From: Treponema sp.
GTDB taxonomy: Bacteria; Spirochaetota; Spirochaetia; Treponematales; Breznakiellaceae
Direction: 5' to 3'
DNA length: 23,930 bases
Assembly (NCBI GenBank): GCA_031277045.1
Contig: JAISLX010000141.1
Span: 1 to 23,930 of the forward strand
Shown here one piece after another: positions 12,682-16,711 of this stretch (position 1 is its first letter; every line of letters starts with the position of its first letter). The position numbers were made by a program, and so were the translations under genes. Below the pieces are notes generated by a model. The model was given only the letters and a program-made list of their open reading frames with translations. It made no database searches and was not told where the DNA came from.

Positions 12682-13143
12682 ATGCGATGCCCTCACTGCG
12701 GAAATTTTGACGACAAAGTTGTCGAATCCCGTACCCTGGCCAACGGCGAGGCTATCCGCCGCCGGCGTGAGTGTAACGGTTGTGGCTATCGTTTTACAAG
12801 CTATGAGCGGATTGAGGACAAACAGTTCATGGTCGTCAAACGGGACAGCCGCCGGGAGCCCTTTGACCGGAGGAAGATCGAGCGCGGGGTTGAACGGGCC
12901 CTGGAAAAACGGCCCGTGTCGCCCATGGTGATCGAAAGCCTGGTTAACCAGGTGGAGGACCAGGCGGCCATTAAGGGTAAGGTCAACCATGAAATCAGCG
13001 CTTCTGCCATCGGGGATCTGGTGCTGGAAAAACTGGCGGCTCTGGACAGTGTGGCCTATATTCGTTTCGCGTCCGTGTACCGGCACTTTGAGAATCTGGA
13101 CGAATTTGTCCGGGAGATACAAAAAATGGGGGGGCAAAAGTGA
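12682..13143 (+). CDS. nrdR: Transcriptional repressor NrdR
   Basis: NrdR senses ATP/dATP through an ATP-cone and represses ribonucleotide reductase genes. The 153-residue product starts MRCPHCGNFDDKVVESR. Its zinc ribbon uses CPHC (Cys3, Cys6) and CNGCGYRFT, with RRRREC before the second pair, exactly as in the family. The rest is the ATP-cone: VVKRDSRREPFDRRKIERG onward to IRFASVYRHFENLDEF. Size is normal. No good Shine-Dalgarno is visible; a GC-rich hairpin lies 10 bases upstream of the ATG. The stop overlaps the nrdD GTG by four bases, so the two are co-translated. Two NrdR-box candidates in its promoter suggest that it regulates its own operon. Confidence 0.96.
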   Translation: MRCPHCGNFDDKVVESRTLANGEAIRRRRECNGCGYRFTSYERIEDKQFMVVKRDSRREPFDRRKIERGVERALEKRPVSPMVIESLVNQVEDQAAIKGKVNHEISASAIGDLVLEKLAALDSVAYIRFASVYRHFENLDEFVREIQKMGGQK

Positions 13144-15206
13144 TAAAACAGGTAGTTAAACGTTCCGGGGCTGTTGAGACCTATGACCGCTACAAAATAT
13201 TCAGCGCCGTAAGCCGGGCCTTTGACGCGGTGGAGAAGAATTTCCCGGCGGGGGGGCTTTCCCCGGAGGAACAGGATCGCCGGGTGGAGGCGGTTACAAG
13301 CCGGGTGGAGGCCCTGCTGGACGAGATGATGAGGGGCCGCCACCCCTCGTCCATACCCGCCATCGAGGAGATTCAGGACCTTGTGGAGACCGCCCTTATC
13401 GAAAAACAGGAAACGGCGGCGGCCAAGGCCTATATCCTCTACCGGGCCAGGCATGAGGCCAGGCGGGACCTTAAAAACCTGATGCTGGATATCGATTCCA
13501 CGATGGACGGCTACCTTAAACAATCCGACTGGCGGGTCAACGAAAACGCTAATGTAAACTACTCCCTGGGGGGGCTGATTCTTCACAATTCGGGAAGCAT
13601 CACCGCCAACTACTGGCTTAAAAACATCTACCCCCCGGAGATCGCGGACGCCCACCGGAACGCGGATTTTCACATCCACGATCTTTCCATGTTTTCAGGC
13701 TACTGCGCCGGATGGTCCCTGCGCCAGCTTATCGCCGAGGGGCTGGGGGGCGTGGCGGACAAAATTACCAGCAAACCGGCGAAGCATCTTTCCACGCTGA
13801 TGCAGCAGGCGGTGAATTTTCTGGGCTGCCTGCAGAACGAGTGGGCCGGGGCCCAGGCCTTTAGTTCTTTTGACACCTACGTCGCCCCTTTTGTAAAGGT
13901 GGACAACCTGAGTGACAAAGAAATAAAACAGTGTCTGCAGAGTTTCGTTTTCGGGGTGAATACTCCCAGCCGCTGGGGCAGCCAGGCGCCTTTTACCAAC
14001 ATCACCCTGGACTGGGTCTGTCCCGCGGATCTTAAGGACCGGAAGGCCGTAACCGGGGGCCGGGAAATGGACTTTACCTACGGCCAGTGTCAGGACCAGA
14101 TGGACCGGATAAACCGGAACTTCATCGAACTTATGCTGGAAGGGGACGCGGACGGCCGGGGTTTTCAGTACCCCATTCCCACTTACAACATAACCAGGGA
14201 TTTTGACTGGGACAGCGGCAACGCCGGGCTCCTCTTTGAAATGACCGCCCGCTACGGCACCCCCTATTTCCAGAATTTTATCAACTCCGACTTGAACCCC
14301 GCCGACGTAAGGTCCATGTGCTGCCGCCTCCAGTTGGACAAACGGGAACTGCGAAAACGGGGGGGCGGCCTTTTTGGTTCCGATGAGCTGACCGGCTCCG
14401 TGGGGGTGGTAACCATCAACCTGCCCCGGATCGCCTATCTGGCCGGGGACCGGGGGGATTTTTACCGCCGTCTTGAGGGACTTATGGACCTGGCCAAGGA
14501 AAGCCTTATCATCAAACGAAAGACCGTAAAAAAACTGCTGGACGCGGGGCTTTTCCCCTACACCCGGCGCTACCTGCGGACGCTGGACAGCCACTTTAAT
14601 ACTATCGGCCTTGTGGGGATGAACGAGGCCCTGCGGAACTTTCTGGGGAAGGACATTACAAGCCAGGAGGGCCGCGCCTTCGCGCTGGAAGTCCTGAATT
14701 TTATGCGGGAAAAGCTGGCGGATTTTCAGGAAGAAACCGGGGAACTGTTTAACCTTGAGGCCACCCCCGCCGAATCGACATCCTACCGCCTGGCGAAGCA
14801 CGACAAGAGCCGTTACCCGGACATTATCACCGCCGGAACCAAGGATCCCTACTACACCAACTCCACCCAGCTTCCGGTCATGGCGACCGAGGACATCTTC
14901 GACGCGCTGGAACAGCAGGAGGCCCTGCAGACCGCCTATACCGGGGGCACGGTGTTTCATGCCTTTTTGGGAGAGGCTATCGAGGACTGGCGGAGCTGCC
15001 GGGACCTGGTGCGGAGCATTGCCTCCAACTACCGGATACCTTACTTTACCATTTCCCCTACTTTTTCCGTGTGCCCCATTCACGGCTATCTTCGGGGGGA
15101 ACACTTCCACTGTCCCAAATGCCGGGAAGAGCGGGAAACGGAACTGCGGGAGGAAATCGCCGCCCTGGAACAGGAGCGGGCCCGGATTTTGGAGCGGACA
15201 ACATGA
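13140..15206 (+). CDS. nrdD: Anaerobic (class III) ribonucleoside-triphosphate reductase body lacking the glycyl-radical segment
   Basis: NrdD makes deoxyribonucleotides without oxygen. This 688-residue product has the N-terminal ATP-cone (IKQVVKRSGAVETYDRYKIF) and the barrel domain. A conserved cysteine (Cys189, FSGYCAGWSLRQL) corresponds to T4 Cys79. The probable thiyl-radical cysteine is Cys394 or Cys395 (RSMCCRLQLD), followed by GGGLFG and VGVVTINLPR. Near the end comes the zinc site Cys645-x12-Cys658-x2-Cys661 (VCPIHGYLRGEHFHCPKC). Normal NrdD continues into the glycyl-radical loop (R-x-x-GYY...NW); here the frame ends with a charged helix (REEIAALEQERARILERTT) and TGA. That missing loop is encoded by the gene at 15389. 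The GTG start overlaps the nrdR stop (GTGA). Confidence 0.93.
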   Translation: MIKQVVKRSGAVETYDRYKIFSAVSRAFDAVEKNFPAGGLSPEEQDRRVEAVTSRVEALLDEMMRGRHPSSIPAIEEIQDLVETALIEKQETAAAKAYILYRARHEARRDLKNLMLDIDSTMDGYLKQSDWRVNENANVNYSLGGLILHNSGSITANYWLKNIYPPEIADAHRNADFHIHDLSMFSGYCAGWSLRQLIAEGLGGVADKITSKPAKHLSTLMQQAVNFLGCLQNEWAGAQAFSSFDTYVAPFVKVDNLSDKEIKQCLQSFVFGVNTPSRWGSQAPFTNITLDWVCPADLKDRKAVTGGREMDFTYGQCQDQMDRINRNFIELMLEGDADGRGFQYPIPTYNITRDFDWDSGNAGLLFEMTARYGTPYFQNFINSDLNPADVRSMCCRLQLDKRELRKRGGGLFGSDELTGSVGVVTINLPRIAYLAGDRGDFYRRLEGLMDLAKESLIIKRKTVKKLLDAGLFPYTRRYLRTLDSHFNTIGLVGMNEALRNFLGKDITSQEGRAFALEVLNFMREKLADFQEETGELFNLEATPAESTSYRLAKHDKSRYPDIITAGTKDPYYTNSTQLPVMATEDIFDALEQQEALQTAYTGGTVFHAFLGEAIEDWRSCRDLVRSIASNYRIPYFTISPTFSVCPIHGYLRGEHFHCPKCREERETELREEIAALEQERARILERTT

Positions 15207-15220
15207 GGATCGCGGAACAT

Positions 15221-15265
15221 GCGGCGGCCTGCCGCGTCCGGCCGGGTTTTCGCGCGGGCCGCCGC
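15221..15265 (+). other. GC-rich hairpin directly after nrdD
   Basis: GCGGCGGCC (15221-15229) pairs perfectly with GGCCGCCGC (15257-15265), and inner CGCG segments can extend the stem. It begins 14 bases after the nrdD stop and could protect the nrdR-nrdD mRNA 3' end. Confidence 0.55.
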
Positions 15266-15285
15266 GGCCCTGAACACGGAATCGT

Positions 15286-15310
15286 AAAAGGCGGGCGTCG
15301 CCCGCTTTTT
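15286..15310 (+). terminator. Intrinsic terminator between nrdD and the glycyl-radical gene
   Basis: GCGGGC-GTC-GCCCGC (15291-15305) followed by TTTTT (15306-15310). The flanking AAAAG can pair with the T-run, so it may work in both directions. It would separate nrdR-nrdD from the downstream pair, fully or partly. Confidence 0.75.
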
Positions 15311-15324
15311 GGATTATACATCGA

Positions 15325-15357
15325 GCCGGTTTCACAACATCGGGTCGCGGAACCGGC
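15325..15357 (+). promoter_or_regulatory. Leader hairpin before the glycyl-radical/thioredoxin gene
   Basis: GCCGGTTTC (15325-15333) pairs with GGAACCGGC (15349-15357), nine pairs with one G-U, loop of 15. It lies between the terminator and the Shine-Dalgarno of the next gene. No convincing promoter is seen in 15311-15375 (a lone TATACA at 15315), so how this pair is transcribed is open. Confidence 0.4.
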
Positions 15358-15388
15358 CCAATTCCATCTAACTAAGGAGTGAAATGAA

Positions 15389-15901
15389 ATGAGAACCCTT
15401 GAGGAAGTCGAACAAGATCTGGCCCGGACCAGAGAGGCCGCCGCGCTGGCGGAAGGAACGCCCGCGGAGGTGTACAGCCGTATCGTGGGCTATTACCGGT
15501 CGGTACGTAACTGGAACCGGGGTAAACGGGAAGAGTACGATGAACGGCGGCTTTACGATCTGTCCCGTCCGGAGTTGTCCGGCCGGGCGGCTCCACAAAT
15601 CCCGGTTATGACGGAATCCGCGAGAACGGAATCCACCGGTTCCGGTACGGCCGGCGCCAGGGTGCTGCTGTTCTGGCGTCCCGCCTGCCCGGCGTGTCCT
15701 TCCGCCAAAGAAGCGGCGGGCCGGCTGGGGATTCCGGTGGACCTGGTAAACGCCGACACGGAAACGGGATTGGCCGAAGCCCAGCGTCATAACGTGCTTG
15801 CCACTCCCACCGCCATTTTCCTCTCCTCCGAGGGGGCGGAGATTGGCAGGGCGCTGGATCCCCGTTCCATCGTCGCCTTCGGAAGCAAGGCCGCGGTTTA
15901 A
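15389..15901 (+). CDS. Stand-alone glycyl-radical domain fused to a thioredoxin-like domain
   Basis: This 170-residue protein has two parts. Residues 24-58 (TPAEVYSRIVGYYRSVRNWN, then RGKREEYDERRLYDL) match the C-terminal glycyl-radical segment of class III reductases, with Gly34 as the radical site. This is the piece missing from the upstream nrdD product. After a Ser/Thr/Gly linker (about 60-89), residues 90-165 form a thioredoxin/glutaredoxin-like fold: strand VLLFWR, redox motif CPAC (Cys100, Cys103), and the cis-proline strand ATPTAIFL (Pro140). Residues 1-22 look like a charged helix. Inferred role: it docks on NrdD, receives the radical from NrdG, and the redoxin re-reduces the active site. 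It has its own strong Shine-Dalgarno (AAGGAG, nine bases upstream) and precedes nrdG by 24 bases. Confidence 0.85.
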   Translation: MRTLEEVEQDLARTREAAALAEGTPAEVYSRIVGYYRSVRNWNRGKREEYDERRLYDLSRPELSGRAAPQIPVMTESARTESTGSGTAGARVLLFWRPACPACPSAKEAAGRLGIPVDLVNADTETGLAEAQRHNVLATPTAIFLSSEGAEIGRALDPRSIVAFGSKAAV

Positions 15902-15925: not shown

Positions 15926-16711
15926 ATGTTCCCCCTGGTAAGCCTGCGGAAAACCAGCCTGGTGGACTATCCCGGCAGGATTTCCGCGGCTATCTTTCTG
16001 CCGGGCTGCAACCTGCGCTGCCCCTGGTGTCAAAACCGGGAACTGGTTCTGCCCGGCGCGGACCGGACGGGGAATTTTATTCCCCTGGACGAAGCCCTGG
16101 CCCTGATCCGGCGGCGCAAAAAGGTGCTGGGGGGGGTGGTTGTCTCCGGGGGGGAGCCGGCTCTGTATCCGGCGCTGGGGGACCTTGCCGGTGAAATTCA
16201 CGGAATTGGGCTGCCGGTAAAACTTGACACCAACGGCCTTTTTCCCCAAATCATACGGGAACTTTTCAAAAAAACCGCCACCCGGCCCGACTATATCGCG
16301 ATGGACCTTAAACTGGCCCCTGGCCGTTACGGGGAGTTACTGCCCGGCGGAATTCCCGGGGACCCCGCCCTTGATCCCGCCGCCGCCCTTGCCGAAAGCG
16401 CCGCCCTGCTGCGGGGTTCCGGGCTGGAGTACGAATTCCGCAGCCTGGCCCTGCCGGGGGGACGTTTTGGTCCCGGCGACGTAAAGGCCCTGGCGCCCCT
16501 GGCCGGCGGGGGGCCCTGGCGTTTCAGGCCCTTCGCCCCGGGAAACTGCCTGGACCCCGCCTGGAATTCATTTCCCGCCACGGGGGAACGGGAGACGGCC
16601 CCGCTGGAGGAAACGGCCAAACTGCTGGCGGCGAAACCCGGAGACGGCGGTGCGGAACCGGCCCTGAACAGGGCCGGCGCGCCGATGGGTATTCGACCCC
16701 CCTTCGAATAA
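15926..16711 (+). CDS. nrdG: Anaerobic ribonucleotide reductase activating protein, radical SAM
   Basis: NrdG uses a 4Fe-4S cluster and S-adenosylmethionine to place the radical on the glycine of the reductase. The 261-residue product has the cluster motif CNLRCPWC (Cys28, Cys32, Cys35), preceded by SLVDYPGRISAAIFLPG, a pattern typical of the longer NrdG type (TIGR02495-like). VVSGGEPALYP (about 72-82) is the SAM-binding GGE motif, and LDTNG and DLK motifs follow. No extra ferredoxin-type cluster is seen. The C-terminal ~40 residues (Ala/Gly/Pro-rich, ending RPPFE) are poorly conserved-looking. It follows the glycyl-radical/thioredoxin gene by 24 bases, a likely two-gene unit. The ATG at 15926 lacks a clear Shine-Dalgarno. 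Confidence 0.9.
   Translation: MFPLVSLRKTSLVDYPGRISAAIFLPGCNLRCPWCQNRELVLPGADRTGNFIPLDEALALIRRRKKVLGGVVVSGGEPALYPALGDLAGEIHGIGLPVKLDTNGLFPQIIRELFKKTATRPDYIAMDLKLAPGRYGELLPGGIPGDPALDPAAALAESAALLRGSGLEYEFRSLALPGGRFGPGDVKALAPLAGGGPWRFRPFAPGNCLDPAWNSFPATGERETAPLEETAKLLAAKPGDGGAEPALNRAGAPMGIRPPFE

Follow-up and report, generated by a model that had tools for sequence, protein, structure and literature searches.

A class III ribonucleotide reductase from a Treponema genome that is very probably divided into two subunits, with the predicted radical glycine on a small thioredoxin-like protein

Ribonucleotide reductases (RNRs) supply DNA precursors in every free-living cell. The class III NrdD/NrdG systems of T4, T. 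maritima and P. copri share with the locus considered here a barrel, a finger-loop cysteine, a zinc site and a glycyl hairpin, along with an ATP cone (in most) and, probably, an NrdG-type activase. Our locus lies in a 23,930-nucleotide stretch of Treponema sp. DNA (contig JAISLX010000141.1 of assembly GCA_031277045.1), which was analysed as a whole and is called the window below. It differs from those enzymes in that the glycyl loop is on another chain together with a thioredoxin-like domain, and in that extra helices stand on both sides of the break. We consider it very likely that nrdD and the small gene following it encode a working two-subunit class III RNR, the small subunit carrying the radical glycine and the thioredoxin-like domain. 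This reading draws on the split itself, its conservation, purifying selection, genomes in which the two genes are unlinked, genomes in which no other RNR was found, and the existence of one-chain relatives.

The nearest precedents are the GrcA/YfiD glycyl proteins, the split class II enzyme NrdJab and, reportedly, an RNR radical subunit fused to a glutaredoxin (referenced in PMC11226230). This last subunit, which we take to be class I, likewise places a radical source and a dithiol reductant in one subunit, but it is a metal-based radical subunit and an unrelated protein. GrcA/YfiD and T4 Y06I, treated as spare parts of pyruvate formate-lyase (PFL) in the available portion of PMC8683613, resemble the small protein in being small, separate glycyl-domain proteins that act on a partner enzyme. 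According to the same portion of that paper PFL keeps its own glycine, which YfiD replaces after cleavage by O2, whereas the NrdD described here has none, and the small protein is NrdD-type rather than PFL-type in sequence. In NrdJa/NrdJb an RNR catalytic chain is also divided, with C-terminal domains on a second chain, but that enzyme is class II and B12-dependent, and the part split off comprises zinc-finger and IscU-like domains and no radical, as far as the accessible sections of PMC9669993 go. Phage nrdD genes can be split by an intron together with an intein or, in phiAS4, into fragments whose cause is left unexplained in the available part of PMC3653736. In the open-access literature of PubMed Central, searched through titles and the beginnings of abstracts, we found no account of a split class III enzyme; subscription papers lie outside that search.

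NrdD of the window is a protein of 688 residues that begins with GTG and ends in ...VCPIHGYLRGEHFHCPKCREERETELREEIAALEQERARILERTT. It is assigned to the PRK08270 group (1071.5 bits), matches the PF13597 and TIGR02487 profiles over the catalytic core of class III RNRs, and has the NrdD fold of this class; the finger-loop cysteine, the beta-A cysteine and the zinc site are all present, and Cys189 is present too. The chain stops 27 residues past the last zinc ligand, and the glycyl loop that class III enzymes carry at the C-terminus of the same chain is found on a separate open reading frame (ORF). The PF13597 profile (NRDD in Pfam) divides cleanly between the two ORFs, matching NrdD over positions 1-534 of 562 (E 4.5e-178) and the small protein over positions 533-562 (E 2.3e-7). 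This second protein of 170 residues bears RIVGYYRSVRNWN, which includes Gly34, and has its CPAC motif at residues 100-103; a helical N-terminal stretch is followed by the glycyl loop, a variable linker and finally a thioredoxin fold that bears CPAC and TPTA. It also matches Pfam Glutaredoxin above the cut-off (E 5.5e-5), and among its Pfam and NCBIfam matches at E<=1 there was no PFL glycyl family, NRDD being matched instead. The thioredoxin/glutaredoxin fold with its CxxC is supported by sequence and by modelling, and TPTA suggests the cis-proline. A preliminary description of this locus had proposed that NrdD ends after the zinc site without a glycyl loop, that the next gene, 182 nucleotides on, encodes the Gly34 loop joined to a CPAC domain, and both proposals are borne out; Cys394 and Cys395, which it also named, are where it placed them, in the MCCR motif.

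Scanning the genomes of bacteria and archaea yielded 322 confirmed places, and the best 80 of them form our locus set. All of these best 80 carry the small glycyl-thioredoxin gene and all are spirochaetes by record title; 75 of the fetched loci also include nrdD, and in none of those 75 does the NrdD ORF contain a glycyl motif. Five loci are without nrdD. Three of these (L046, L049, L064) start near the small gene, while the other two (L048, L056) have about 3.8 kb upstream of it without nrdD and are possibly further unlinked cases. The arrangement, first thought to be unique, is therefore common among related spirochaetes, and the search for split NrdD beside a Gly-CPAC protein returned the opposite of the absence that the preliminary description had named as damaging to its proposal.

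At E<=1e-3, 1206 proteins resemble the small protein, the window's own counted. In a 32-row alignment (the window protein and 31 picked from 120 listed matches of the 1206), no change is seen in EVYSRIVGYYRSV, in either CPxC cysteine or in TPTA, while the linker varies; across 23 aligned rows the catalytic cysteines (including Cys394/Cys395), three zinc cysteines and the glycine are likewise invariant. The ratio of nonsynonymous to synonymous substitution rates (dN/dS) between the window and six relatives is 0.08-0.17 for the glycyl domain and 0.08-0.18 for the thioredoxin-like domain, and at this level of sequence comparison both domains of the small protein are under purifying selection. Gene decay or an assembly error, for which we found no supporting point, is hardly credible beside the same split in so many relatives, this selection and the invariant catalytic residues. 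We reject it on the absence of glycyl motifs from all 75 NrdD ORFs, the dN/dS values, the spread of gap lengths and the unlinked genes described next.

The distance between nrdD and the small gene ranges from -4 to 524 nucleotides (median 72.5) in the 74 of 80 loci with both ends placed, the start codon being taken by our script near 26 residues ahead of the glycyl motif. All three phases occur (31/23/20), and 69 of the 74 have a Shine-Dalgarno-like motif of at least four bases ahead of the small gene, counted without a chance control. In the window itself, 182 nucleotides separate the nrdD stop from the start of the small gene, and the two ORFs lie in different frames. The shared frame in 23 of the 74 loci speaks for a joining of the frames into one chain by read-through, frameshift or splicing, but the three phases, the gap lengths and the Shine-Dalgarno-like motifs argue against this, as do seven genomes in which the genes are unlinked. 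We hold such joining to be very improbable and reject it on the spread of gaps and phases and on the unlinked genes; the worry that the two frames might in fact be continuous does not apply to the window, and among the 74 relatives any gap length is found.

These unlinked cases come from a wider sample of Spirochaetota, in which 160 of 296 genomes have an NRDD match among the matches listed. Of the 100 loci that we fetched, 99 have an NRDD match that ends short of position 553 of 562; the other one, G015, is matched in full and has an internal stop. A separate glycyl ORF is present in the fetched stretch in 88, with the thioredoxin-like domain detected in 44 and not detected in 44; one of the latter (L231) has a helical N-terminus like that of the form in the window. 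One locus is fused, with a long linker. In the remaining 11 the fetched stretch lacks a glycyl motif, and for each of them the assembly has a stand-alone glycyl gene at another place. Both genes are on one multi-megabase contig in G166, G174, G127, G020, G277, G289 and G032, separated by at least about 97 kb (the smallest distance being in G032). In five of these seven (G166, G174, G127, G020, G032) the glycyl protein keeps the helix and the loop and a thioredoxin-like domain was not detectable in it, while G277 and G289 keep that domain. Two or more stand-alone glycyl genes per NrdD core occur in G015, G024, G078, G093, G167 and G223. Confinement of the split to treponemes is ruled out by this sample and by the matches to a mini glycyl profile described below.

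Whether cells with the split locus have another RNR was searched in 80 split genomes taken from a set of 101. Neither a class I/II large subunit nor a full-length NrdD was found in 28 of these 80; each of the 28 has one NRDD core ending at position 525-539, accompanied by one glycyl piece in 26 genomes and by extra pieces in two, and one of them (G233) consists of a 3.43 Mb contig in a 3.5 Mb genome. The proportion overstates the share of genomes with no other RNR, since seven of the 21 left out (G117, G122, G147, G219, G248, G284, G295) have a full-length NrdD of another type. These counts bear on the idea that the cell can do without the small protein, which would be a repair part as GrcA/YfiD is for PFL and not an obligate subunit. 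In favour of this, YfiD has been validated as a glycyl protein that stands alone, such parts have been suggested for other glycyl radical enzymes (available portion of PMC8683613), and some genomes have two or more glycyl minis, but an NrdD lacking a glycyl loop of its own leaves nothing to repair and the 28 genomes showed no other RNR, so that we regard a mere repair role as improbable.

One-chain relatives offer a view of how the two-subunit enzyme may have arisen. From the full-length matches in the NRDD list we took 20 loci (one of them, G207, matched only 1-530). Of these 20, eight encode NrdD, glycyl loop and thioredoxin-like domain in a single chain (L289, L292, L294 and L296-L300; open frames of 785-877 codons), five encode NrdD and glycyl loop in one chain (L282, L284, L285, L288, L295) and seven are other NrdD types. 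Fused chains with the thioredoxin-like domain thus occur in the same phylum as the split forms, and another such tripartite chain is found in MT835493.1 (L140), a human-gut record labelled Bacteriophage sp. That record also holds thioredoxin-reductase-like and nrdG-like genes and may be a bacterial scaffold.

The zinc site and the glycyl motif are a median of 4 residues apart in fused chains (n=21, range 3-41) and exactly 4 apart in all nine fused chains with the thioredoxin-like domain. In the split form with this domain, by contrast, the NrdD tail has a median length of 27 residues (n=115, range 21-49, some loci overlapping) and the N-terminal extension of the small protein a median of 26. 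The tail is mostly absent from fused loci, and both extensions are retained even where the genes are unlinked. The earlier suggestion that these segments form a docking pair, which we still call putative, gains support from this comparison. The ancestor would be a one-chain enzyme, which became split when its chain was broken between the zinc site and the glycyl loop. On a quick tree of 79 rows, the form with the thioredoxin-like domain and a mini form fall in different parts of the NrdD tree, a single clade of both (one origin of the two) is rejected by the approximately unbiased test (p-AU 0.002), and the fewest split/fused changes number three. The thioredoxin form makes up one side of a branch with support 0, so its monophyly is neither shown nor rejected. 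The short glycyl protein without a thioredoxin-like domain is a second, separately arisen split form.

Because the two genes share a frame in a relative, L001, we modelled its nrdD and small gene as one 877-residue AlphaFold chain, with the intervening stops read as glycine. The linked chain has a mean predicted local distance difference test score (pLDDT) of 83.6 and a predicted template modelling score of 0.73. Its glycyl stretch forms a hairpin (strands 729-734 and 737-740), and the junction at 692-699 is below 50 in pLDDT between helix blocks at 661-690 and 706-721 that score 78-95, the counterpart of the NrdD C-terminal extension being modelled as a helix. Over 492 residues the model superposes on T4 NrdD (1hk8) at 2.3 A, its residues 139-742 lying on 26-586 of the T4 chain. 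The overlay ranges give end residues only, and glycines were placed by end offset. By this offset Gly736 of L001 is predicted to fall on T4 residue 580, the reported site of the T4 radical (Gly580), and with T. maritima 4coi on 621, which we take to be the glycyl residue Gly621. Modelled alone, the small protein has a mean pLDDT of 46-54 in four of five models, and its glycyl region there, a helix of low-to-moderate confidence, was not used as evidence of fold.

From these features we infer complex formation, activation in trans by NrdG, radical transfer and use of the thioredoxin-like domain as reductant. The nucleotide-binding cone, barrel, active-site cysteines and zinc site would all belong to NrdD, and the glycine that NrdG turns into a radical to the small subunit, whose thioredoxin-like domain would sit on a flexible linker. 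The helix pair formed by the NrdD C-terminus and the small-protein N-terminus would keep the subunits together, so placed that the docked glycyl hairpin sits in the barrel where an ordinary NrdD has its C-terminal loop. The radical would then pass from the hairpin to an MCCR cysteine, and the tethered CPAC domain would most likely reduce the active-site disulfide after turnover. The preliminary description had likewise read the locus as a two-subunit reductase, and this reading is supported.

Several points weigh against this reading. The finger-loop stretch with the two cysteines (residues 391-410) has a pLDDT of only 54-56 in the L001 model, which therefore does not tell which cysteine faces the glycine, and the end offset on P. 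copri gives 712 where Gly711 is expected. Docking in the model was helped by the linked chain and by nine fused viral rows in the alignment, so the geometry is allowed but is not proof that two free chains bind. An nrdG gene was found in just 39 of the 80 loci, several of which end early. Missing RNRs in some genomes may reflect incomplete assemblies. Breznakiella homolactica encodes, besides the split enzyme, a full-length NrdD of a different type as well as a class I/II large subunit, so the split locus is not essential there; the early concern that a full-length NrdD elsewhere could make it dispensable applies to this and other genomes of the sample, and not to the 28 in which none was found. 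The role of the thioredoxin-like domain is the weakest step, because the domain was not detected in some relatives.

It is possible, though on balance unlikely, that the enzyme is split as proposed but uses formate, the thioredoxin-like domain serving to protect, repair or anchor. The MCCR double-cysteine motif with its methionine has been associated with formate or thioredoxin use (PMC9669993, section 2.5), and the domain was not detected in five of the seven genomes with unlinked genes or in the second split form; its thioredoxin fold, the invariance of both cysteines and TPTA in 32 rows, and its fusion to one-chain NrdD relatives as well, speak for a reductant. Of the original suggestion that the small protein carries both the radical and the dithiol, the presence of the glycyl loop and the CPAC motif in this protein stands, while the thioredoxin-like domain does not appear to be an essential part of the arrangement.

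The second split form appears to be numerous. With a mini glycyl profile built from 16 sequences, 7993 candidates were scored, of which 7988 match at E<=1e-3; those listed, 120 in number, are 46-94 residues long and include Anaerolinea, Pelolinea, other Chloroflexota and Margulisiibacteriota, and some may be partial genes at contig ends. Among 55 IMG/VR loci (L081-L135), NrdD and the glycyl motif share one ORF in 14. The 38 in which the glycyl ORF lies outside any NrdD ORF were searched for an NrdD core (L104 and L112, without a phmmer match, and L126 were left out), making 39 virus-collection records with MT835493.1. In 37 of the 39, many IMG/VR records being fragments, the search showed a glycyl piece, which in some is joined by part of the zinc region, and an NrdD core was not found; the other two are L111, a split NrdD, and the fused MT835493.1. 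The archaeal virus ANMV-1 (KP703175.1, 38,465 bases) similarly has a 144-residue protein annotated as anaerobic RNR, with a glycyl piece and no core.

By analogy with YfiD, such viral proteins are candidates for RNR spare parts. The authors of the YfiD work considered spare parts possible for other glycyl radical enzymes, and in the available portion of that paper they are validated only for PFL (PMC8683613). A broader proposal, which we put forward tentatively and rate somewhat below an even chance, is that the radical split is widespread and has arisen at least twice, that it makes the O2-sensitive part cheap and exchangeable (damage costing 5-20 kDa and not the whole enzyme), and that phages and archaeal viruses carry NrdD-type glycyl subunits that fit into the NrdD cores of their hosts.

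If the two-subunit reading is true, the assumption that glycyl radical and thiyl site must be on the same chain would be overturned by a stable radical located on an exchangeable protein of its own, radical transfer could be studied by mixing subunits, and a ready test for exchangeable parts in glycyl radical enzymes beyond PFL would be at hand. In public records such small proteins are called 'ribonucleoside-triphosphate reductase', 'anaerobic ribonucleoside-triphosphate reductase', 'glutaredoxin family protein' or hypothetical, and many small proteins annotated as anaerobic ribonucleoside-triphosphate reductase may be subunits and not fragments.

Features of the split nrdD locus in the window
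Feature	Position	Strand	Remark
nrdR, RNR gene regulator	12682..13143	+	start inferred via TIGR00244 match (ORF residue 49)
nrdD core: ATP cone, barrel, MCCR finger loop, zinc site	13140..15206	+	no glycyl loop
Cys394-Cys395 codons, MCCR motif, putative thiyl cysteine	14319..14324	+	
Zinc site Cys645, His648, Cys658, Cys661	15072..15122	+	
27-residue C-terminal extension of NrdD after the zinc site, putative docking helix	15123..15203	+	
Hairpin and T run, terminator- or attenuator-like	15286..15311	+	between nrdD and small gene
Separate glycyl-radical subunit with thioredoxin-like domain, 170 residues	15389..15901	+	
N-terminal helical extension of small protein, putative docking helix	15389..15466	+	
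Gly34 codon, predicted glycyl radical	15488..15490	+	L001 counterpart aligns with T4 Gly580
CPAC redox motif, thioredoxin-like domain	15686..15697	+	presumed cis-proline is Thr139-Pro140
nrdG-like radical S-adenosylmethionine (SAM) activase	15926..16711	+	motif CNLRCPWC

The operon runs from nrdR through nrdD and the small gene to nrdG. The best NCBIfam match of the radical-SAM ORF is TIGR02495 NrdG2, at 126.5 bits against a curated cut-off of 131.15. The nrdR TGA is overlapped by the nrdD GTG start (13140-13143), which suggests coupled translation, and a Shine-Dalgarno-like AAGGAG lies 9 nucleotides upstream of the ATG of the small gene. The intergenic hairpin after nrdD could separate the expression of the two genes or attenuate it; terminator-like sites in the region number 9 against 7.1 (standard deviation 2.6) in shuffles, which is no excess, and the hairpin is not a general feature, the gap being too short for one in several relatives. 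In three other loci (L014, L016, L022) the NrdD ORF reaches 1018-1019 residues through an intein-like insert of about 325 residues between the two MCCR active-site cysteines, and the NrdD ORF of L013 and the phage NrdD of L111 and L141 look interrupted too.

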